DNA of 64,000 bases from Apostichopus japonicus. Taxonomy: Eukaryota > Echinodermata > Holothuroidea > Aspidochirotida > Stichopodidae. The notes beneath the pieces are model-generated. The model saw only the letters and a program-made list of their open reading frames with translations. It did no database searches and was not told the DNA's origin. The stretch is taken from the NCBI RefSeq assembly GCF_037975245.1, contig NC_092569.1, positions 13,646,001-13,710,000 of the forward strand, written 5' to 3'. A program made the position numbers and the translations under genes. Within the stretch, counting starts at the first letter, position 1. Every line of letters starts with the position of its first letter. Below are positions 1-63,966 of the stretch, piece after piece.

Positions 1-3000
1 CTTAAATAACTTTGATTCCACCTCCTCCAAACAGACAATAGCTGAGAAGGTTGGTATTCGTCAGTTCAGTTGACTTTTAGTGCTTTTAAGACACGTCTAA
101 AGGAAGGAATTTAGATACTTTTTTTTACAAGAACCCACGCTTCAGGATACCGTCCGATCCACCAAAAACCTTTCCTTCCAATCTCTCCCGACCACTCCCA
201 CCATTCCTCATACCCCCCACTCCCACCACTTACCACCCTCCCCGAAAATCTTAACACAACAACAAGACTTCCAAGATACTTCCAATTTTACGCACAAATC
301 CGAAGAACCCAAACCATTTGACCCCCACCCCTATCCCATTGCCCCCTCCCTCCAATACCCCACCCGTAAAATTGCACGACAACAATATTACTTCTAAACA
401 TCCTTTAGTGGTTACTGGCTATTTAACTATTGGGATTTTTTATTCTTCATGCTGAACGTTTACTAGAATGCTTTCATATAGGTCTGACTATATACGGATA
501 ACCATTAACTACTAAGGCACCATACCATAACTAGAGTCCAAATCACATCCGCATATCAGTGACTATAAACTTACTGAGCTTAGTGAACACTTAATTATAG
601 TTTCTTCATAATACTGAAACAACAGTAAACTAAAGAAAAGAAAACATACATTTTCTACATTTATAAATTTTGAACGGTCAAATCACGTTAAATGTTCTTC
701 GGTTAAAATATTAGATACATTATTCAGCGATATATAGGTTTTCGAGCCCTATCTACTTTATTTACTAAGAGCGCTCCCATCTTAATACTGCTGTTACGTT
801 GACGGGCGATCAATACTATCGCATATTTCATCAGTTAAACGTTTGCACTCAAGTAACACAATTACTTTGCGTTAGGGTACACCACTAAAAACGCACCTCG
901 TAAAAATTATATATATATATACTAGAGAAAAAAATAAGTCTTTTTAAGCGAATTTAGGACTACAAAGCCAGCTACGAATTCAAAAACCTTAGCCTACCTT
1001 GGTTCGGAATTTATGAACAACTTTCTTACCTCTCAATTTATGTGAACACTTAATCTGCCATGCAATTGGCAGCAGGTCATATTTTCATCTTAATAATTTT
1101 TCACCCCTCCCATCATGATGCAGATTGTAATATAATGATATGTGTAAAATTAAATCTCTGTTGGCTTCATCACATTCAACAAAATGAATAAATTTTTTGT
1201 AGGACTAATGATAATATATGTAATTACAATTTGAATCCGCATATTTTCGCAGTACCCATTACTGTCAAAATTGTTCTCATTTGTGGAACGGAAACACCCC
1301 CAAATCGAACCCCAACTAGTGAAAACCTTGTACATAATGTACGCATTATTTACCATGTGACTAGCACAAGCAACTGGCGATATTTTCATCAGTAGCACCT
1401 TCACCTCACGCAGTGGCGTCGCCAAGGATTGGCCTGGGGGCACGTGCCCTCCCAAAGCAAATCGTGCCCACAATTGCCCCCTAGATGCGATTTGTAATGT
1501 TAAAAAATTACTCAAACAAATTTTTATTTTACAAAGGACGAAACGTATTATGTTCATCAGTAAAACTTCTTTCCCTGACCATCACAATAACCAGTTGTTT
1601 TCTCACTAACAAGGTCACAGAGGCCCCGGCGTGAACCGCTAGTGCTTAAACTTCACTACTACCCTGAACATACAGTTACTTCAAGTTTCAAAATATAGCA
1701 CCAGATTGCACCTAAAGACCCTTAATTAATCAAAAATTTCTCAGGAGGACACCCCTTCTCCTTAGATCCCTCCCGATTGATATCATTCATTCAAATAAAC
1801 ATTGTGCCCCCTTATTAAGTGTTGTGCCCCTGTGCCCCCAAGATTGAAATGTCTGGCGACGCCACTGCCCTCACTCCCTCCCTTCACAGTATGACTTTCT
1901 TGAAAGTAATTGTTCTTTGTAAATTGCAAAAGGTCACATAATTTCGCATTTCAGCATCCTACTTTTTACAGAAGTGGATCAAAATGGGGAGGAGACAACC
2001 CTTCCCGTGAAACCCTGATCAATTGGTTCCTGGTTTTCAGACAGAGATATGAAATAAATATTTTCAAGAGATCGCAACCAATACCATTGACTAAGGCAAG
2101 AATATTACTGAACCACAATAGTTCAGTAGAGTGATATAACACGTTATTTATACTGATTGACCGTGATAACCGCAATTATTGGTATTGCTCGAATCTTGAA
2201 ACACAACTTACTTTTTATTATAAATGTAAATATTGAAGCAAATTAAAACTAAAACAGTAGAATGGAACAAGGAGTTACTAGGACATCGATGTTGTTAAGG
2301 GGCGAATTCAGCACTTAACAATCATCCTTATATATGAGAGTTATGAAACTTAAATTTCAAGTAACTTTCAACATATAGTGTATAGATCCGACATGTTTTC
2401 TCCACATCCATTAAACAATTAATGGAGTCTGACATGAAGCTTCCTTAACATCACATCCGAACATTGCATATCGCTCACACAGACGATGCCATTAAGCGTA
2501 AATGTGTCAATTTCATAAATGTTTAAATTTAATTTTTTAAACGGATATGGTCAAGACATTTTATTGGGGGCTGGGAGTAAGGATTTGGCTACCATTATGT
2601 TATTTCAGGTTAATATATACAATTAACTTGATTTTCTGTTAATCAGATCAGATAATATCACTTGAACACCGGCTTCATAATCACCCCATGCATTATCACA
2701 CAAACACACACTACACGTTTCTATTCCTGTGTCGTGACGTAAAACCCATGCAGTACTTCTTGCACGCGTAGGAGTGTATGTGATTGATAGATACCTTTTT
2801 TAACCAATATCGATTTAGAAAAGGACAGAATGGTATATTAAAAAAAAACTATGACAAAGTAGAAGAAAGTGAGGTGGCTGTAAGTCACATTGTTTTCTCT
2901 AATTTTTAACACCAATATAGAGATAGCATGGCTTGATTCTGGTTTGTAAGATAAGCACGATCGATATCGTTACGGTACTGTACCTATGTCATCATTACCA

Positions 3001-4974: not shown

Positions 4975-5954
4975 CTATGACAAAGTAGAACAAAGTGAGA
5001 TGGCTGTACGTCAACATTGTTTTCTACAACTTTGCAACGCCAACATAGAGATAACATGGCTTGATTCTGGTTTGTAAGGTCAGCACAATCGATATTACTG
5101 TTCCTGTACCATCATTACCAATACAAGGGTTTGAAACATGAGTATGTTGGAAGTTCTGGCCATAGTTTGGGAGCCCTGGATCAATCTACAAGGGGTAACA
5201 CCTCCTTGGCGAGAGCCTGTATAGGACAAAACCAACTGTAGCAGCAAAATGTATGATCGTGTGCATTTGTCTATTACAGTTAACCTTCCGTCCTTTTTTT
5301 AACCTCAGTTTAAATACATATCCGCTTCTCTGCGTGTACCTTGAAGCTGATTTACTGGAGCCAAGAATATTGCTCTTCTATATAAGTGTTTGTTCTCATT
5401 AAAGTACAGTTCCTCTTGAAAAAATACATAAAGCCCTAGCTGTGATTAAAACAATAAGTCAGTTCTCAAAGCCATTAATGAATAAACTAACTGGTGTATT
5501 GAACACAAAAGGAAGCTTTATTAAAGAAGAAATGTTTCCTTCGATTTTTGGTTACCATGGAGAGGCATGGCTATCGAGAGATTTAGAATGGTTTTGTAAA
5601 TATATCTTTGCTGCAGTTGCCAATGAATCAAATTTTAATATGTTCAGATGAGAATCACACCTTATTAAAGACTTCGATTTTCTTCAATTTTATTGATAGT
5701 GAATAACCGAAAATATCATTTATTTATTACGTTGTTGATATCTGATTGGATGATATGTATATCAACCTTTACTGCTGTCTCTGCCCAAGAGTTTAAGCGA
5801 TAATTAATCAACGCCATTAATGAATATTCTGAATGGTATATTGAACACAAAAGAAGATGTATCTCAATACGATATTTTCCCTTCGATTTTAGTTATCACT
5901 TGGCTTCAGAATAACTTATTAAAGATCAACACACCAGAAAAGTTTGCTATGGTG

Positions 5955-5994
<40 letters not shown>

Positions 5995-6526
5995 GTTATA
6001 CACAATTAACCCTAACGAAGACTGAATTTCGACCTGCACAAATCATTCAAACCGAAACGTGCCAAAACCCCCACTTAGGAAGAATTGGCTGAATAGATGC
6101 AACTAATCTTGACCAGCAATAATCTGGTATTTGGCAACAAACACTACCTCCAAATTCATGGCACTGCAATGGGTACCAAAATGACACCGTCTTTTGTCAA
6201 CATCTTTATGGGAAACTTCGAGAAAGAATTTCTATCTCGACAAAACTTGAAACCACACACGTTGTTACGTTTCATTGACGATATCTTCATGATATTGACC
6301 GATGACGATTCAAATCTAAAACTCTTCATTGATGACACAAACTCGTTTCATCTCACAATCAAACTTACTGCAGTCGATTTTGATTCCCGCATTAAAGAAC
6401 TGTCACAACATCTCCTAAACAGACATTATTTTCGGGTACTATTGAAAATGCTATCAAAAGGCTAAAAGCAAACCCCGTACCGATACATTGACGTACAAAA
6501 CTCGTCAAAACAGTTCCAAAAGGGAA

Positions 6527-6840: not shown

Positions 6841-6900
6841 TCGGATTATTTTAATCCGCGTCGGATTATTTTAATCCGCGTCGGATTGTTTTAATCCGAT
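6841..6900. repeat. Three exact 20-bp palindromic repeats across the Penelope stop codon
   Basis: Three head-to-tail 20-bp units, each with a 7-bp inverted pair CGGATTA/TAATCCG. The third has one internal G for A and a changed last base. The stop codon of the RT-endonuclease ORF (complement of 6891-6893) lies in the third unit. Confidence 0.95.
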
Positions 6901-8390
6901 TCCGTCGTAATTGTAAAGGAATTGTTTTGGTTTATCTGGGACGGCAAATCGTTTCTGATGTTTAAACCGAATGGTGCCGTGGTCTTTAGGTTTAGTTCCC
7001 AGAAATTTTCTTTCGCTTTCCTAGATTTATCTGTCCAAGAATCGTTCTGGTCAATGGCAATAACACGCAAATTCTCAATTGAATGATTTTGGAGATTGAA
7101 GTGATTTGCAACAGGTTGGTAGATCTTTTTTGTTTTGATCGCCGATCTATGTTGTGTCATTCTCATTCTAAGAGTGTTTTTTGACTCTCCAATGTATTGT
7201 AAGTTACAAATAATGCAGTAGATGAGGTAAATGACATTTTTGGATAGGCAGTTAATTTTGTGCCGAATTTGGAACGTGCGTTTGGTTTGGTTGCTCTGAA
7301 AGGCCCCGGTCGAATCGACAAGTAAGCACGTTTTGCAATTTTGTGTACAGGGCGATGATCCTGTAGTTTCTGTTTTGCTTTCCCCTAATGGGGTGTCATC
7401 CCGAAAGGATGCCCGAACTAAGATATCCAGTAGGTTGCTGGGTCTTTTAAAAGCGATGACAGGTAATTCTGGGAATACTGATTTCAGGCGTTCGGTGCCT
7501 TGAAGTAGGTGAAAATTCTTCTGAATGATAGTAGCCAGTGGTGGGAGACCAGGGTGGAATTCAGTAACCAATGGTACCCTTTTGGAACTGGTTTGACGAG
7601 TTTTGTACGTCAATGTTTCGGTACGGGGTTTGCTTTTAGCCTTTTTGATGGCATTTTCAATAGTACCCCGAAAATACTGTCTGTTTAGGAGGTGTTGTGA
7701 CAGTTCTTTAGTGCGTGAATCAAAATCGACTTCAGAGGAGCAAATGCGTCGAATGCGCAACGCTTGACTGTACGGAATATTTCTGGTACAGTGACGTGGA
7801 TGGCAACTACTTGGTAAGAGGTAGTTGTGCTTGTTCGTGGGTTTATTGAACAAGTCTGTTTTGAGTGAACCATTTTGTAGGGTCACGGTGGTGTCCAGAA
7901 AGTGAACGCCATGTCCAGAAAAATCAGCAGTGAATTTGATAGTGTGATGAAACGAGTTTATGTCATCAATGAAGAGTTTTAGATTAGCCTCACCATGGGT
8001 CCATATCATAAAGATATCGTCAATGTAACGTAACCACGTGTGTGGTTTCAAGTTTTGTCGAGATAAAAATTCTTTCTCGAGGTTTCCCATAAAGATGTTG
8101 GCAAAAGACGGTGCCATTTTGGTACCCATTGCGGTGCCATGAATTTGGAGGTAGTGTTTGTTGCCAAATACCAGATTATTGTTGGTCAAGATAAGTTGCA
8201 TTAATTCGGCCAATTCTTTCTTCGTGGGGGTTTTGCCACGTATCGGTTTGAATGCTTTTGTGCAGGCCGAAATGCCCTCTTCGTTAGGGATATTTGTGTA
8301 TAACGAAGACACATCCAAGGTAACTAACAGAGAGGATAAGGGAAGATAGCGACTGAAAAAATTTCCAAATTCGTGGATCTCCTCATCCAA
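6891..8390 (-). CDS. Penelope-like retroelement RT + GIY-YIG endonuclease (5'-truncated)
   Basis: 499-residue open frame. Residues ~20-160 are reverse transcriptase: LVTLDVSSLYTNIPNEEGI carries the first catalytic Asp region, then HYLQIHGTAMGTKMAPSFAN and WLRYIDDIFMIW with the Asp pair. A thumb and linker region follows. Residues ~380-480 form a GIY-YIG-type nuclease: NVIYLIYC, CNLQYIGES, LRMRMTQHRSAI, then a conserved ENFWELN. This RT + GIY-YIG order is diagnostic of endonuclease-bearing Penelope-like elements. The N-terminus of the family protein is missing: the Met at 8390 lies next to the inversion junction, so it is not a natural start. The frame is otherwise uninterrupted, suggesting recent insertion. 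Confidence 0.92.
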   Translation of the reverse strand: MDEEIHEFGNFFSRYLPLSSLLVTLDVSSLYTNIPNEEGISACTKAFKPIRGKTPTKKELAELMQLILTNNNLVFGNKHYLQIHGTAMGTKMAPSFANIFMGNLEKEFLSRQNLKPHTWLRYIDDIFMIWTHGEANLKLFIDDINSFHHTIKFTADFSGHGVHFLDTTVTLQNGSLKTDLFNKPTNKHNYLLPSSCHPRHCTRNIPYSQALRIRRICSSEVDFDSRTKELSQHLLNRQYFRGTIENAIKKAKSKPRTETLTYKTRQTSSKRVPLVTEFHPGLPPLATIIQKNFHLLQGTERLKSVFPELPVIAFKRPSNLLDILVRASFRDDTPLGESKTETTGSSPCTQNCKTCLLVDSTGAFQSNQTKRTFQIRHKINCLSKNVIYLIYCIICNLQYIGESKNTLRMRMTQHRSAIKTKKIYQPVANHFNLQNHSIENLRVIAIDQNDSWTDKSRKAKENFWELNLKTTAPFGLNIRNDLPSQINQNNSFTITTESD

Positions 8391-8490
8391 CCTCTCGTTT
8401 CGGCCCTACCGTCCTATGTGCAGGACACTACGGATTTCATCCGGAAAATTGGGGAAATAAAAAATCTTCCCTTATCCTCTCTGTTAGTTA
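8372..8490 (+). pseudogene. Inverted Penelope N-terminal RT piece
   Basis: In-frame plus-strand segment reading PLVSALPSYVQDTTDFI then NLPLSSLLVT. This is the RT stretch that should precede the minus-strand ORF at 6891-8390, here in opposite orientation. It breaks off at 8490 into the inverted terminal arm. It shows the head-to-head structure of the insertion. Confidence 0.8.
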
Positions 8491-29140: not shown

Positions 29141-29144
<4 letters not shown>

Positions 29145-29291
29145 TGTGTAGCAAGTGGTATGCCAGATATATGGTACTTAAATAAGGAATAACACACCAG
29201 TTTTATAACCCTCAATGACCCAGTTATACAAAACCAATTTATACGCATTAACACACCAGTAGAATCACTGTGGTCGAGTGGTACGGACTTC

Positions 29292-29293
<2 letters not shown>
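29141..29293 (+). mobile_element. Truncated copy of the tRNA-box A / hammerhead element
   Basis: Matches the reverse complement of ~63838-63990: AATGTGTAGCAAGTGGTATG, GGAATAACACACCAGTTTTA, CCAATTTATACGCATTAACA, then box A-like TGGTCGAGTGG (29271-29281) and TACGGACTTCGG. It breaks into (AT)n just before where box B and the hammerhead should follow, so the ribozyme is missing here. Confidence 0.8.
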
Positions 29294-29335
<42 letters not shown>

Positions 29336-45486: not shown

Positions 45487-45921
45487 AATGAAAATCGTAA
45501 TGAGTTGGAAAATCAAGAACAGTGAAAAAACTTTCAGCTTCCACCGGAATTCGAACCACGGGCCTCCCGCTCTGTACGCGGACACCCTAACCACTAGGCT
45601 ATGGACGCTGATTGTATGTCCAGAGGTTCGAAACCGGTAAGGAAGATCGTAATTCCACTGTAGGCGTTTGTCACCTGTATCGAACAATACTAGTTCTGTT
45701 TTTGGTGACATATTTTGCCTTACTCTAGAGATCAAACATGATGCTAACCAACTCGAAAATCATTTGTGATTCCTAAAGCCGGATCTCGAAAAAGATACTT
45801 TGAACAGACTTTATGTTAATGCAATGGAGGTAAACGACAAAGGCAAATGAATATATATAAATGAAAATCGTAATGAGTTGGAAAATCAAGAACAGTGAAA
45901 AAACTTTCAGCCTCCACCGGG

Positions 45922-57044: not shown

Positions 57045-59239
57045 GCTTGAACATAAAGTTACTTCAAGTTGCAAAATATAGCACCAGATTGCAGCTAAGG
57101 ACCCTTAATTAATCTAAAATTTCTCAGGAGGAAACCTCTTCCTCTTAGACCCCTCCCCATTGATGGCATTTATTCAAATAAACATCGTGTCCCTTAATTA
57201 AGTGTTGTACCCCCTGTGCCCCCAAGATTGAAATGTCTGGCTACACCACTGCCCTCACTCCCTCCCTCTCACATTATGACTTTCAATTGTTCTTTGTAAA
57301 TTGTAAAATATCACACAATTTTGCTTTTCAGCGTCCTTACTTTTTACAGAAGTGGATCAAAATGGGGAGGAGACATCCCTTCCCGTGAAACCCTGATCAC
57401 TTGGCTCCTGGTTTTCAGACAGTGATATGAAATAAATATTTTCAAGAGATCGCAACCAATACAATTGACTAAGGCAAGAATATTACTGAACCACACTAGT
57501 TTAGTGGAGTGAGATAACACGTTATTTATACTGATTGACCGTGATAACCGCAATTATTGTTATTGCTTGAATCTGTGCAGAACACAACTTACTTTTTATT
57601 GTAAATATTAATATTGAAGCAAATTAAAAATAAAACAGTGGAATTGAACGAGGAGTAACTACGACGTCGATGCTGTTAAGGTGTGAATTCAGCACTTAAC
57701 AATCATCCTTATATTTGAGAGATATGAAACTAAAATTTAAAGTAACTTACAAGATATAGTGTATAGATCCGACATGTTTTCTCCACGTCCTGTAAACACT
57801 TAATGGAGTTTGCGATGAAGCTTAATTAACATCACATCCGATCATTGCATATCGCTCACACAGACGATGCCATTAAGCGCAAATGTGTCAATTTCATAAA
57901 TGTTTAAATTTAATTTTTTAAACGGATATGGTCAACAAGACTTTCCATTGGAGGCTGGGAGTAAGGGTTTGGCTACCATTATGTTATTTCAGGTTAATAT
58001 ATACATTTAACTTGATTTTCTGTTAATCAGATCAGATAATGTCTTTTTAACACCGGCTTCATAATCACCCCATGCATTATCACACAAACCCACACGTTTC
58101 TATTCCTGTGACGTGACGTAAAACACATGCGGTACTTCTTACACGCGTGGGAGTGTATATGGTTGATGGATACCTTTTTGAACCAATATCGATTTAGAAA
58201 AAAAGACAGAATGGTATATTAAAAACTATGACAAAGTAGAAAAAAGTGAGGTGGCTGTACGTAAACATTGTTTTCTACAACTTTGAAGCGCCAACATAGA
58301 GATAACATGGCTTGATTCTGGTTGGTTAGGTCAGCACCATCGATATCGTAACGGTACTGTACCTGTACCATCATTACCAATACAAGGGTTTGAAACATGA
58401 GTATGTTGGAAGTTCTGGCCATTGTTTGGGAGCCCTGGGTCAATCTACAAGGGGTATAACACCTCCTTGGCGAGAGTCTGTATAGGACAAAACCAACTGT
58501 AGCAGCAAAACGTATGATCGCGTGTGCATTTGTTTATTACAGTTAACCTCCCGTCCCTTTTTAACCTCAGTTACAGTACATCTCTGCTTCTCCGCGTGTA
58601 CATGAAAGCTGATTAACTGAAGCCAAGAATATTGCTCTTCTATATTTTGTTCTCATTAGGGTACAGTTCCTCTTGAACAAATACATAAAGCCTAGCTGTG
58701 ATTAAAACAATTAGTCAGTTCTCACAGCCATTAATGAATATACTAACTGGTGTATTAAACACAAAAGAAGCTTTATTAAAGACGATATGTTTCCTTCGAT
58801 TTTTGGTTACCATGGAGAGGCATGGCTATCGAGAGATTTAGAATGGTTTTGTAAATATATCTTTGCTGCAGTTGCAAATGAATCAAATTTTAATATGTTC
58901 AGATGAGAATCACACCTTATTAAAGACTTCAATTTTCTTCAATTTTATTGATACTGAATAACCGAAAATATCATTTCATTTATTACGTTGTTGATATCTG
59001 ATTGGATGATATGTATATCAACCTTTACTGCTGTCTCTGCACAAGAGTTTAACGATAATTAATCAACGCCATTAATGAAAATTCTGAATGGTATATTGAA
59101 CACAAAAGAAGATGTATCTCAATACAATATTTTCCCTTCGATTTTAGTTATCATGGACACGCTTGGCTTCAGAATAACTTATTAAAGATCAACACACCAG
59201 AAAAGTTTGCTATGGTGGTATATTTATATATATATTTAT
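57045..59239. repeat. Composite repeat unit R4
   Basis: R core with landmarks at 57354 and 58397; lacks the CR1 insertion. Closest in layout to R2 and R5. No gene. Confidence 0.78.
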
Positions 59240-59672: not shown

Positions 59673-61840
59673 GAACATAAAGTTACTTCAAGTTGCAAAA
59701 TATAGCACCAGATTGCACCTAAAGACCCTTAATTAATCTAAAATTTCTCAGGAGGACACCTCTTCCTCTTAGACCCCTCCCCATTGATGGCATTCATTCA
59801 AATAAACATCGTGCCCCCTAATTTAGTGTGGTACCCTCCTGTGCCCCCAAGTTTGAAATGTCTGGGGACGCCACTGCCTCACTCCCTCCCTCCCTCCCAC
59901 AGTATGACTTTCTTGAAAGTAATTGTTCTTTGTCAATTGTAAAAGATCACACAATTTCGCATTTCAGCATTCTTACTTTTAACAGAAGTGGATCAAAATG
60001 GGGAGGAGACATCCCTTCCCGTGAAACCCTGATCACTTGGTTCCTGGTTTTCAGACAGTGAAATGAAATAAATATTTTCAAGAGATCGCAACCAATACAA
60101 TTGACTAAGGAAAGAATATCACTGAACCACAATAGTTTAGTAGAGTGAGATAACATGTTATTCATACTGATTGACCGTGATAACCGAAATTATTGGTATT
60201 GCTTGAATCTTGAAACACAACTTACTTTTTATTGTAAATGTAAATATTGAAGCAAATTAAAAATAAAACAGTAGAATGGAACGAGGACTTACTGGGACGT
60301 CGATGCAGTTAAGGGTCGAATTCAGCATTTAAAATTCACCCTAATATATGAGAGATATGAAACTTAAATTTCCAGTAACTTACAACATACAGTGTATAGA
60401 TCCGACATGTTTTCTCCACATCTATTTAAACACGTAATGGAGTTTGACATGATGCTTCCTTCACATCACGTCCGATCATTGCATATCGCTCACACAGATC
60501 ATGCAATTAAGCGCAATTGTGTCAATTTCATAAATGTTTAAATTTAATTTTTTAAACGGATATGGTCAAGACTTTTTATTGGAGGCTAGGGAAAGGGTTT
60601 GGCTACCATTATGTTATTCAGGTTAATATATACAATTAACTTGATTTTCTGTTAATCAGATCAGATAATGTCTTTTTAACACGGTCGGCTTCATAATCAC
60701 CCCATGCATTATCACACAAACCCACACGTTTTTATTCCTGTGACGTGACGTAAAACACATGCGGTACTTCTTGCACGCGTGAGAGTGTACATGGTTGATG
60801 GATACCTTTTTGAACCAATATCGATTTAGAAAAAAAGACAGAATGGTATATAAAAACTATGACAAAGTAGAAAAAAGTGAGGTGGCTGTAAGTCAACATT
60901 GTTTTCTACAACTTTGAAGCGCCAACATAGAGATAACAAGGCTTGATTCGGGTTGGTAAGGTCAGCACCATCGATATCGTTACGGTACTGTACCTCTACC
61001 ATAATTACCAATACAAGGGTTTGAAACATGAGTATGTTGGAAGTTCTGGCCATTGTTTGGGAGCCCTGCGTCAATCTACAAGGGGTATAACACCTCCTTG
61101 GCGAGAGTCTGTATGGGACAAAACCAACTGTAGCAGCAAAACGTATGATCGTGTGCATTTGTTTATTACAGTTAACCTTCCGTCCTTTTTTAACCTCAGT
61201 TTAAGTTCATATCCGCTTCTCTGCGTGTACCTGAAAGCTGATTTACTGGTGCCAAGAATATTGCTCTTCTATATTTTGTTCTCATTAGGGTACAGTTCCT
61301 CTTGAACAAATGCATAAAGCCTAGCTGTGATTAAAACAATTTAGTCAGTTCTCACAGCCATTAATGAATATACTAACTGGTGTATTGAACACAAAAGAAG
61401 CTTTATTAAAGACGATATGTTTCCTTCGATTTTTGTTTACCATGGAGAGGCAAGGCTATTGAGAGATTTAGAATGGTTTTGTAAATATATCTTTGCTGCA
61501 GTTGCCAATGATTCAATTTTTCATATGTTCAGATGAGAATCACACCTTATTAAAGACTTCGATTTTCTTCAATTTTATTGAAAGTGAAAAACCGAAAATA
61601 TCATTTCATTTATTACGTTGTTGATATCTGATTGGATGATATGTATATCAACCTTTACTGCTGTCTCTGCACAAGAGTTTAAGCGATAATTAATCAACGC
61701 CATTAATGAAAATTCTGAATGGTATATTGAACACAAAAGAAGATGTATCTCAATACAATATTTTCCTTTCGATTTTAGTTATCACGTGGCTTCAGAATAA
61801 ATTATTAAAGATCAACACACCAGAAAAGTTTGCTATGGTG

Positions 61841-62426: not shown

Positions 62427-63735
62427 TTTAATTGTCTTTCATTGTGTTAAGAGATAATCGGTTTAAAACTCAGGTGCGCGGCCATTGTACTCTCAGTAGG
62501 ATATATTTATTGAGACAGAAATGTTCCTTTGAATTGGCCATTCAAGTGATTCAACAAGCAATATATAAACTCAGCATAATACGGTATAAACGGGGGTGGT
62601 TTCTGTATCTCTTTAGATTATTATATATATTTTTTTATTATTGTTGTTATCACCACAAGCATGGTAAATGTATATACTTTGAGGTAAATATATCTATTCT
62701 TAGAATTTTCTTATTATGTTTCCATATTGATATTTTTATCGTCATATGGCTTTATCAATTCTTTGCATATAGGCCTATTATTTATAAAATTAGCGAGGTT
62801 CAGTCGTGTTAATTATGGCCTATATACGGTATAGAAAGCGAATTTTGAAGGTAAATGTAGAAAGATCTTTCAGAGACATATAATCTTTCTTGATGTCTAA
62901 ATGATTTGTATCAAGAGACTAATTATTTCAGTTTTTAATGTAATATTTCCACTTGACGTGTATATTCCAGAAAATGGAAGAAGAAGTAGGTATTAAAATA
63001 TTATTAAAAGTTATCGTTTCTTCATATACTTGTAACGAACATAATTTATGATGTGCAAAGATTTATTTTCAATATTGTATCCCGTCACTGAACATTTATG
63101 TTCATTATATCGTTTTCAATGTTATCTACATAAAAAGAACAGCGAATCAAATTTTATGAGATGCAGGTAAACATTTACAGATTTAGAGATAAAGATCGAA
63201 GATAACAGTGCATGCGCATATAGGGAATGGTTAACCACCCCCCCCCCACCACCACCACGGACTCCCATGGGGTTATGCGAGACCTGGATATGATTATTAA
63301 AATTAATTAGCAGACAGCATACTGCCTTAATGGAAAACATTTTCTTCACCTTTTCCCTGGCTTATTCTTATACACGGAGTTTTGCTCCATAATCGTTGTA
63401 AAACCAAAAATATTGGTTGCGTATACCGTATAGTTTGTATATTACGATGTACATACGCGAGTATTGTCCTATACTTGCGTATCTGTCTCGACGCTTGAGA
63501 TTAGTCTAAGGAGGAATCGTCCTATAATTAAGGGAGACACAAACCCACAAACATTATCTTTAGTCTGTTATGCTTTCTGAGGACAGAGAGCATATGCAAT
63601 GAACCACTTCTGAATCTCTGGGGCGCCAGAAGCATGAGGTCCTGAAGGCGCCGATTTCCTCTTGATTGCGAAAGGTGCTAGTTTTGTACGAGGCGCCATT
63701 GTAAACTGTGTTTATCTTTAATTGTATATATAAAT
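62427..63735. repeat. Block A tail, right copy
   Basis: Parallel to 9752-11090 with small indels; contains a poly-C/CCACC run at 63238-63258. No gene. Confidence 0.85.
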
Positions 63736-63746
63736 ATATATAAATT

Positions 63747-63942
63747 AAGAATAACACACCAGAAAAAATCCACTTCACGACCGGTTTCGTCCTTTTTGAG
63801 ACTCATCAGTCGAACCCCAATCTTTGTGTCACGAACCGAAGTCCGTACCACTCGACCACAGTGATTCTACTAGTGTGTTAATGCGTATAAATTGGTTTTG
63901 TTTAACTGTCATTGAGGGTAATAAAACTGGTGTGTTATTCTT
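63747..63942 (-). mobile_element. Small element: 16-bp inverted ends, tRNA-type promoter and hammerhead ribozyme
   Basis: Ends AAGAATAACACACCAG (63747-63762) and CTGGTGTGTTATTCTT (63927-63942) are perfect inverted copies. Minus-strand order: left end, AT-rich segment, box A TGGTCGAGTGG (63848-63858), box B GGTTCGACTGA (63806-63816), hammerhead (63772-63816), right end. Box A to box B start distance is 42 nt, in the tRNA range. A related sequence without the ribozyme is at 29141-29293. This resembles a small non-autonomous retroelement (SINE or retrozyme-like). No coding capacity. Confidence 0.8.
63772..63816 (-). ncRNA. Hammerhead ribozyme, type I-like, with palindromic short stem III
   Basis: Minus strand: CTGATGAG (63802-63809), stem II GTCT/GGAC with AAAAA loop region, GAAA (63785-63788), then CCGGTC (63779-63784) giving the A-U closing pair and the C17 cleavage position. 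All core nucleotides match the hammerhead consensus. Stem III ACCGGT is self-complementary with no loop, so it would work as a dimer of two RNAs, as known for short-stem-III hammerheads of retroelements. Stem I is weak: G-U, C-G, U-A, U-A, with an A-G mismatch next to the core. Confidence 0.8.
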
Positions 63943-63966
63943 TATTTATTTACCATATATCTGTCA

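Follow-up and report, generated by a model that had tools for sequence, protein, structure and literature searches.

The window (the whole 64-kb stretch of DNA that was analysed, G000:C9:13646001-13710000, in a genome of 671.6 Mb and 35 contigs) codes for a fibrinogen C domain and several reverse transcriptases, one of them with a GIY-YIG domain, a content that makes an animal origin probable. The element described here lies at the edge of the window. Alignment by blastn with the majority sequence of its copies (85% identity) places its body at 63730..63918 on the minus strand, where it corresponds to positions 85-287 of the family unit, is 5'-truncated, and contains a tRNA-like part, a hammerhead and a 3' tail. 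The consensus of box A is TRGYNNARNNG and that of box B is GGTTCGANTCC. On the minus strand, the body carries the box A word TGGTCGAGTGG (63848..63858), which fits this consensus and takes family position 145-155, and a damaged box B, GGTTCGACTGA (63806..63816), which reads GGTTCGATTCC in the family and differs from the consensus at its final two letters. The hammerhead box CTGATGAG (63809-63802, minus strand) follows in the sequence, and the four bases CTGA, which the original prediction had assigned to both boxes, are indeed common to them on this strand, within the joined string GGTTCGACTGATGAG.

The type I hammerhead extends over 63773..63815 (minus strand) and was matched by the Rfam model Hammerhead_1 with 27.5 bits, short of the 34 bits that the model sets as threshold; over the 64 kb of the window the E-value is 0.016. 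Its core had been taken to be intact. This is true of the letters, since CTGATGA, GAAA, GTC and the palindrome ACCGGT are all present on the minus strand and cleavage is predicted between 63779 and 63778, after the C at 63779; stem I is damaged, as two of its six pairs cannot form. Directly behind the ribozyme stands a run of six T (63763..63768, minus strand; five T in the family), a possible Pol III terminator. An internal arm, TAACACACTAG (63870..63880, minus strand), can pair with one mismatch with CTGGTGTGTTA at 63762-63752, and in the family unit folded as a circle this pairing would close the domain made of the tRNA-like part and the hammerhead.

The perfect 16-bp inverted repeats noticed at 63747..63762 and 63927..63942 do exist, within 26-nt arms of 92% identity, and nevertheless do not bound the element. 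The right arm is the 3' tail of the body itself, and the left arm belongs to an inverted copy of that tail, a 60-nt piece (unit 254-313, plus strand, blastn 96.7%) which runs from 63927 on to 63986 and abuts body position 85, that is the 5' side of the body, with an 8-nt filler (63919-63926) in between. A second, truncated copy at 29141..29294 (plus strand), which breaks off within the tRNA-like part at (TA)n, has the same inverted-tail junction, so that one of the two copies probably arose by duplication or remobilisation.

The stretch 63740-63960 was used to search its own genome and gave at least 86 matches, among the best 40 of 975 candidates scored; 30 loci were fetched, read and aligned (L027 and L028, which look like duplicates, were both counted). 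The majority unit is about 340 nt long, numbered from TAAAGAGTGG, with a GC content of 42.1%, i.e. below 50%. Box A occupies 145-155 and box B 188-198, both words being perfect, followed by TACCTTCGC and by the ribozyme core from 208, 9 nt downstream of box B. Cleavage is predicted after C237, and the T5 run at 249-253, directly behind the ribozyme, is the sole run of four or more T in the unit, the tail extending to 324. Genome-wide, the core pattern CTGATGAGTC-N4-12-GACGAAACCGGTC was found at 281 places (140 + 141), against none for the reversed control, and GGTTCG followed within 28 nt by CTGATGAGTC at 338 places (176 + 162), against one. Among the matches listed, the family length of 30 was seen in 85 of the 99 linked places compared, and an upstream box B was linked to 52 of the 75 cores that lie where the two lists overlap. 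Changes of CTTCGC to CTTCAC or CTTTGC among the linked places look like CpG decay. The hammerhead family RF00163 gave at least 59 matches in the genome, at least 50 of them over the cut-off (among the best 74 of 66,307 candidates scored, family membership not being checked for each), and no match in 14 control genomes. Copies often form tandem units (for example L005, L030, L034, L038, L089 and L107), and many are single. No copy was present in eleven 10-kb loci taken at fixed places (L040-L050), and the plasmid collection held no match to the element. Since the linked words recur at 338 places and a piece of the unit was present in all 20 further loci picked from the GGTTCG-CTGATGAGTC list, the arrangement is a genome-wide multi-copy element and not a one-off junction of two repeats. 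As read from these copies, Pol III-type boxes are joined directly to a type I hammerhead.

The four-base overlap itself has another origin. Alignment of the window copy with the family revealed the loss of 13 nt between GGTTCG and CTGATGAG (deletion site 63810..63815, minus strand). On re-alignment this loss falls between two TTCG words, and because TTCG is repeated its exact point is ambiguous. The overlap is private to the window copy among 34 aligned copy rows (row L001 being the window copy) and was absent from the linked places compared (99, the shortest of 25 letters, all on contigs before C9). In L012 the identical 13 columns are missing, yet a C is retained before CTGATGAG. With its 13 nt the window copy has lost the last part of box B together with the outer stem, and its stem I is weaker. 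When a free core and stem II were imposed, the fold of the window copy (59 nt) cost 6.7 kcal/mol, versus 2.6 for the family (71 nt); in a longer window stretch of 112 nt, the cost of the free core was only 2.8 kcal/mol. Hammerhead stem I was missing from both constrained folds of the window copy, and a co-fold of two such copies gave no double hammerhead. Given these failed folds and the damage to box B and stem I, the overlap is best read as decay, and its reading as a functional design was rejected. The window copy probably no longer cleaves well or binds Pol III factors well. The related idea that the T-loop region doubles as a strand of stem I does not hold for the overlap in the window; it survives in another form in the family, where the closing letters of box B, ATTCC (194-198), and the GGAAT that follows the ribozyme (245-249) are predicted to form the outer part of stem I. 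As a separate observation, the identical loss in L012 and in the window copy points to a possible deletion hot spot in the element.

The original prediction had proposed that copies be folded with a hammerhead covariance model. Of 20 loci taken from the 30, 18 contained Hammerhead_1 matches at or above threshold, at 22 places in all, or 20 distinct places, as L005 and L029 overlap; L006 and L012 remained below, and in L026 only a neighbouring copy passed. The HH9 model scored 40 bits, below its 52-bit threshold, and aligned the whole extended stem I, formed by CUUCGC/GUGAAG, a UAC bulge (UACCU) and AUUCC/GGAAU. AUUCC being the last five bases of box B, these would belong in the family both to box B and to the outer stem. 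The aligned copies (L001, L029, L039 and identical sequences left out) were too alike to show covariation, and the outer-stem pairing is a prediction. Core letters outside the search pattern vary like the spacer (14/131 vs 72/656), and selection on the core is therefore not visible in single copies; better kept is the 3' strand of stem I (3/132 changed). The 5' ends of truncated pieces lie near position 238 in L002 (236 and 241), L035 (235) and L027/L028 (242), none exactly there, and they form no exact pile-up at the cleavage site.

Stem III of the ribozyme is the palindrome ACCGGU. In single copies the predicted fold partly mispairs the core, and the unconstrained co-fold of two 43-nt copies gave a double hammerhead with both cores free. 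A tandem transcript of 464 nt had as its minimum-energy fold two mispaired monomers and not the double hammerhead. In newt satellite 2 RNA, two tandem type I hammerheads are described as acting together through an elongated helix III (PMC6155905). The co-fold and the existence of tandem copies favour the dimer route that had been suggested for cleavage. A pairing of 123-133 (TAACACACCAG) with 254-264 (CTGGTGTGTTA) is possible within the unit and would enclose the tRNA-like part and the ribozyme in one domain. As a circle, the unit folds with z = -3.0 and is more stable than its shuffles, only one of 100 being as stable, but its paired fraction is 60%, as in the shuffles.

Box A at unit position 145 and box B at 188 have the spacing of a tRNA, and words A and B at tRNA-like spacing occurred in only one of 40,000 shuffled strands of the unit. 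Variation among the copies was compared between parts of the unit, with p-values that are optimistic because the copies are related and not independent: in the 20 further loci, box A carried fewer changes than the A-to-B spacer (11/234 vs 74/687, p 0.006; p 0.03 when the spacer was taken together with the 5' part), and among the copies obtained first, ranked by similarity, the two boxes taken together had 9/726 changes against 43/1045 for the spacer (p 0.0003). The further loci had been chosen by GGTTCG and CTGATGAGTC, a choice that leaves box A, and whatever stretches fall outside those two words, as the only unbiased parts there. No recognisable tRNA lies at the 5' end: box A lies 145 nt from the start of the unit, and the tRNA model RF00005, run on one locus (L005) with E-values of up to 10 admitted, did not match the tRNA-like part. 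Transcription by Pol III would yield only about 130-253, and this stretch by itself folds (z = -2.1) into two hairpins, of which the ribozyme is the second. As a stop at the T5 run would omit the 5' part and the tail, a mobilised RNA would need read-through or another polymerase.

Rfam tRNA matches at window 45536 and 11438 were considered and discarded, as they are not the element. The sequences at window 45535-45609 (minus strand) and L012 1014-1086 (minus strand) are near-identical and tRNA-like (Rfam 41.4 and 47.2 bits); ARAGORN read the former as tRNA-Cys with anticodon aca, and the pair may perhaps represent another tRNA-derived repeat of the genome.

A hammerhead-like core directly behind a tRNA-like word was also encountered in viral contigs of IMG/VR. 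Among 36 stretches with a box B-like word and CTGATGA...CGAAA, 16 had a stem II of at least four pairs, against 0/31 for two scrambled cores (L052, L054, L056, L057, L060, L062, L066, L069, L071, L076, L077, L079, L080, L082, L083 and L084; some of these contigs are near-copies of each other). Rfam was used to scan 16 viral loci. A tRNA ends right at that place in 12 (L054, L056, L057, L058, L060, L062, L067, L071, L076, L077, L079 and L082) and no tRNA ends there in L052, L069, L080 and L083, while no Rfam hammerhead family reached its threshold in the 16. In L056 the order is a tRNA (5948-6021), the hammerhead-like core and a match to the Y RNA-like YrlA (6096-6224; 69.7 bits, threshold 69), and in L052, L054 and L076 a similar ACCTTGTGGTGTA word stands behind the core. 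These viral cores possibly serve in ribozyme processing of phage tRNA transcripts.

To describe how copies end, L001, L029, L022 and L039 (same or near-identical places) were left out beforehand and the remaining matches were grouped into 43 clusters, reduced to 40 by dropping three 33-nt pieces of another window repeat. In 16 of the 40 clusters the 3' side points outward on both flanks. Both outer ends lie within the tail (272 or beyond) in 12 of the 40 (L002, L007, L010, L015, L018, L030-L035 and the window copy) and elsewhere in L005, L011, L019 and the 29-kb copy of the window. The pattern with both outer ends in the tail was also found in five of the 20 further loci (L090, L091, L098, L099 and L101). 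Neighbouring pieces on the same strand, in tandem arrangement, and 5'-truncated copies are present in the family. Copies mostly meet TA repeats, and the TA-richness of the outer flanks (57/80) masks target site duplications. A Penelope-like enzyme has been described to cut and extend both DNA strands, with a preference for AT-rich DNA, and to start inside its RNA, hammerhead cleavage not being needed for insertion in vitro (PMC11167929). By analogy, an enzyme of this type could give inserts with inverted tails. The tandem and partial-tandem copies, the AT-rich target and the traces of two-strand priming found here are consistent with a Penelope enzyme, without being proof of it. Among the pieces in the window, no tail common to the element and an identified autonomous Penelope element was established.

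Three 33-nt stretches of the window (5912-5944, 59175-59207 and 61798-61830) are 82-85% like the tail (unit 247-279). Each lies near TA-rich DNA and a Penelope-type piece, a possible trace of a mobilising partner. A Penelope-type ORF at 6891-8405 (minus strand) combines the domains of a reverse transcriptase and GIY-YIG, and is surrounded by TA repeats and inverted pieces.

Taken together, copy number, linkage, architecture, the deletion and the junction pattern establish at the level of sequence that the family is real, and from its copies the element looks mobile. Folding of the ribozyme is predicted; we infer transcription, cleavage, circles and a Penelope partner. The unit appears to be a non-coding, retrozyme-like element of about 340 nt with hundreds of copies. 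The explanation that we regard on balance as probable is that the window holds a decayed copy of such an element, with a putative Pol III promoter of its own, a ribozyme acting as a dimer and probable mobilisation of the Penelope type. Pol III would start shortly upstream of box A and transcribe the tRNA-like part together with the ribozyme. Two ribozymes would come together when the T5 run is read through or tandem copies are transcribed; joined by the palindrome ACCGGU as a double hammerhead, they would release a unit-length RNA with ends suited to ligation. This RNA would then be copied by a reverse transcriptase, most likely that of a Penelope-like element, cutting and priming both DNA strands at TA repeats, and the inverted 3' tail in the window would have been left by priming from both strands.

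A bolder form of this explanation, which we put forward only tentatively, sees a retrozyme with its own Pol III gene, in which boxes, ribozyme and terminator form one 120-nt unit and the last five bases of box B are a strand of the outer stem. The ribozyme would cut off its own U-tail, or excise unit circles on read-through, so that promoter and processing signal would be one structure, and the inverted tails would record two-strand priming of the Penelope type.

A rival reading, which we hold to be rather unlikely, is a retrozyme carrying a fossil piece of a tRNA, the boxes being relics, promoters outside the element reading through it, and the hammerhead alone making circles. The position of box A deep inside the unit, the T-run after it and the lack of a tRNA model match in L005 would fit such relics, and so would a review according to which promoters seem to be absent from the retrozymes of plants and animals alike (PMC7761336); for a plant retrozyme, an LTR promoter has since been reported (PMC9695139, PMC12029980). 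Against it, both boxes are perfect in the majority sequence; in addition, box A varies less than the spacer, in copies which are not independent, and box B stays together with the hammerhead at the 338 places.

That the element is an ordinary tRNA-derived SINE, moved by a LINE and bearing a hammerhead by happenstance, appears improbable. Such a SINE would have box A and box B words, 5' truncations and no coding capacity, as here, and has a precedent in the schistosome repeat Sm-alpha (PMC2770079); its promoter would not be expected away from the 5' end, and the tandem and inverted arrangement, the TA-rich flanks and the share of copies with 3' ends outward on both sides also argue against it. 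A MITE-like DNA transposon was suggested by the perfect 16-bp arms as terminal inverted repeats, and was rejected as very improbable: in 37 of the 40 best places the alignment starts no earlier than query position 42-44, the left arm missing there, the tail extends beyond the arms, copy ends vary, and terminal inverted repeats were not found at both copy ends. A chance junction of tRNA-like and hammerhead-like words was likewise rejected, as next to impossible. Taken singly, such words should turn up by chance in the window (mean 1.58 for CTGATGAG alone, 0.88 for CTGATGA...GAAA alone), but the linked words number 338 against one in the reversed control.

Returning to the retrozyme-like element with a putative Pol III promoter of its own, its interest lies in the question of how animal retrozymes are transcribed, which a family with Pol III words joined to a ribozyme makes testable. 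The outward 3' ends on both sides may also record how such RNAs are inserted in genomes, a record that would link retrozymes to the two-strand cutting described for the Penelope enzyme (PMC11167929). Metazoan non-LTR retrozymes are reported to have type I hammerheads in tandem repeats of 150-450 bp, with a GC content below 50% and many copies, and to coexist with Penelope-like elements; they lack LTRs, a primer binding site and a polypurine tract, their target site duplications, when present, exceed 4 bp, and dimeric action is reported for those of vertebrates (PMC7229834). The present family resembles them in its type I hammerhead, its unit of about 340 nt occurring in tandem, its GC content, its many copies and its coexistence with Penelope-like elements. 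Linear and circular RNAs have been shown for these retrozymes and are a prediction for the family described here, within which the window copy, L006 and L012 fall below the Hammerhead_1 threshold, unlike 18 of the 20 loci. It differs from retrozymes that, according to the review cited above, seem promoterless (PMC7761336), in having box A and B words linked to its ribozyme, with a T-run behind. With Penelope-like elements that carry hammerheads it shares tandem or partial-tandem copies and AT-rich targets; those elements encode their own enzyme (PMC11167929), and the present unit does not. Newt satellite 2 has a type I hammerhead in repeats as well, and no tRNA-like part is mentioned in the accessible portion of that report (PMC6155905).

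The closest parallel is found in schistosomes, where Sm-alpha and Sj-alpha combine a tRNA or tRNA-derived part and a hammerhead in one short repeat (PMC2770079, PMC4918200). Sm-alpha is described as a tRNA-Gln-derived SINE with a hammerhead (PMC2770079), and where animal repeats were screened for motifs of the primer-binding and polypurine type, schistosome repeats with a full tRNA-Gln were the exception (PMC4918200). The present family has, instead of a full tRNA-Gln, the box A-to-box B stretch only, which Rfam does not recognise as a tRNA in L005 and which runs straight into stem I. In the literature covered, mostly by titles and abstract openings and with few subscription journals, an arrangement of Pol III boxes with a hammerhead or retrozyme was not found outside schistosomes. 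For this reason, and because the element agrees with animal retrozymes in the features that could be compared, we class it as retrozyme-like, with a putative built-in Pol III promoter.
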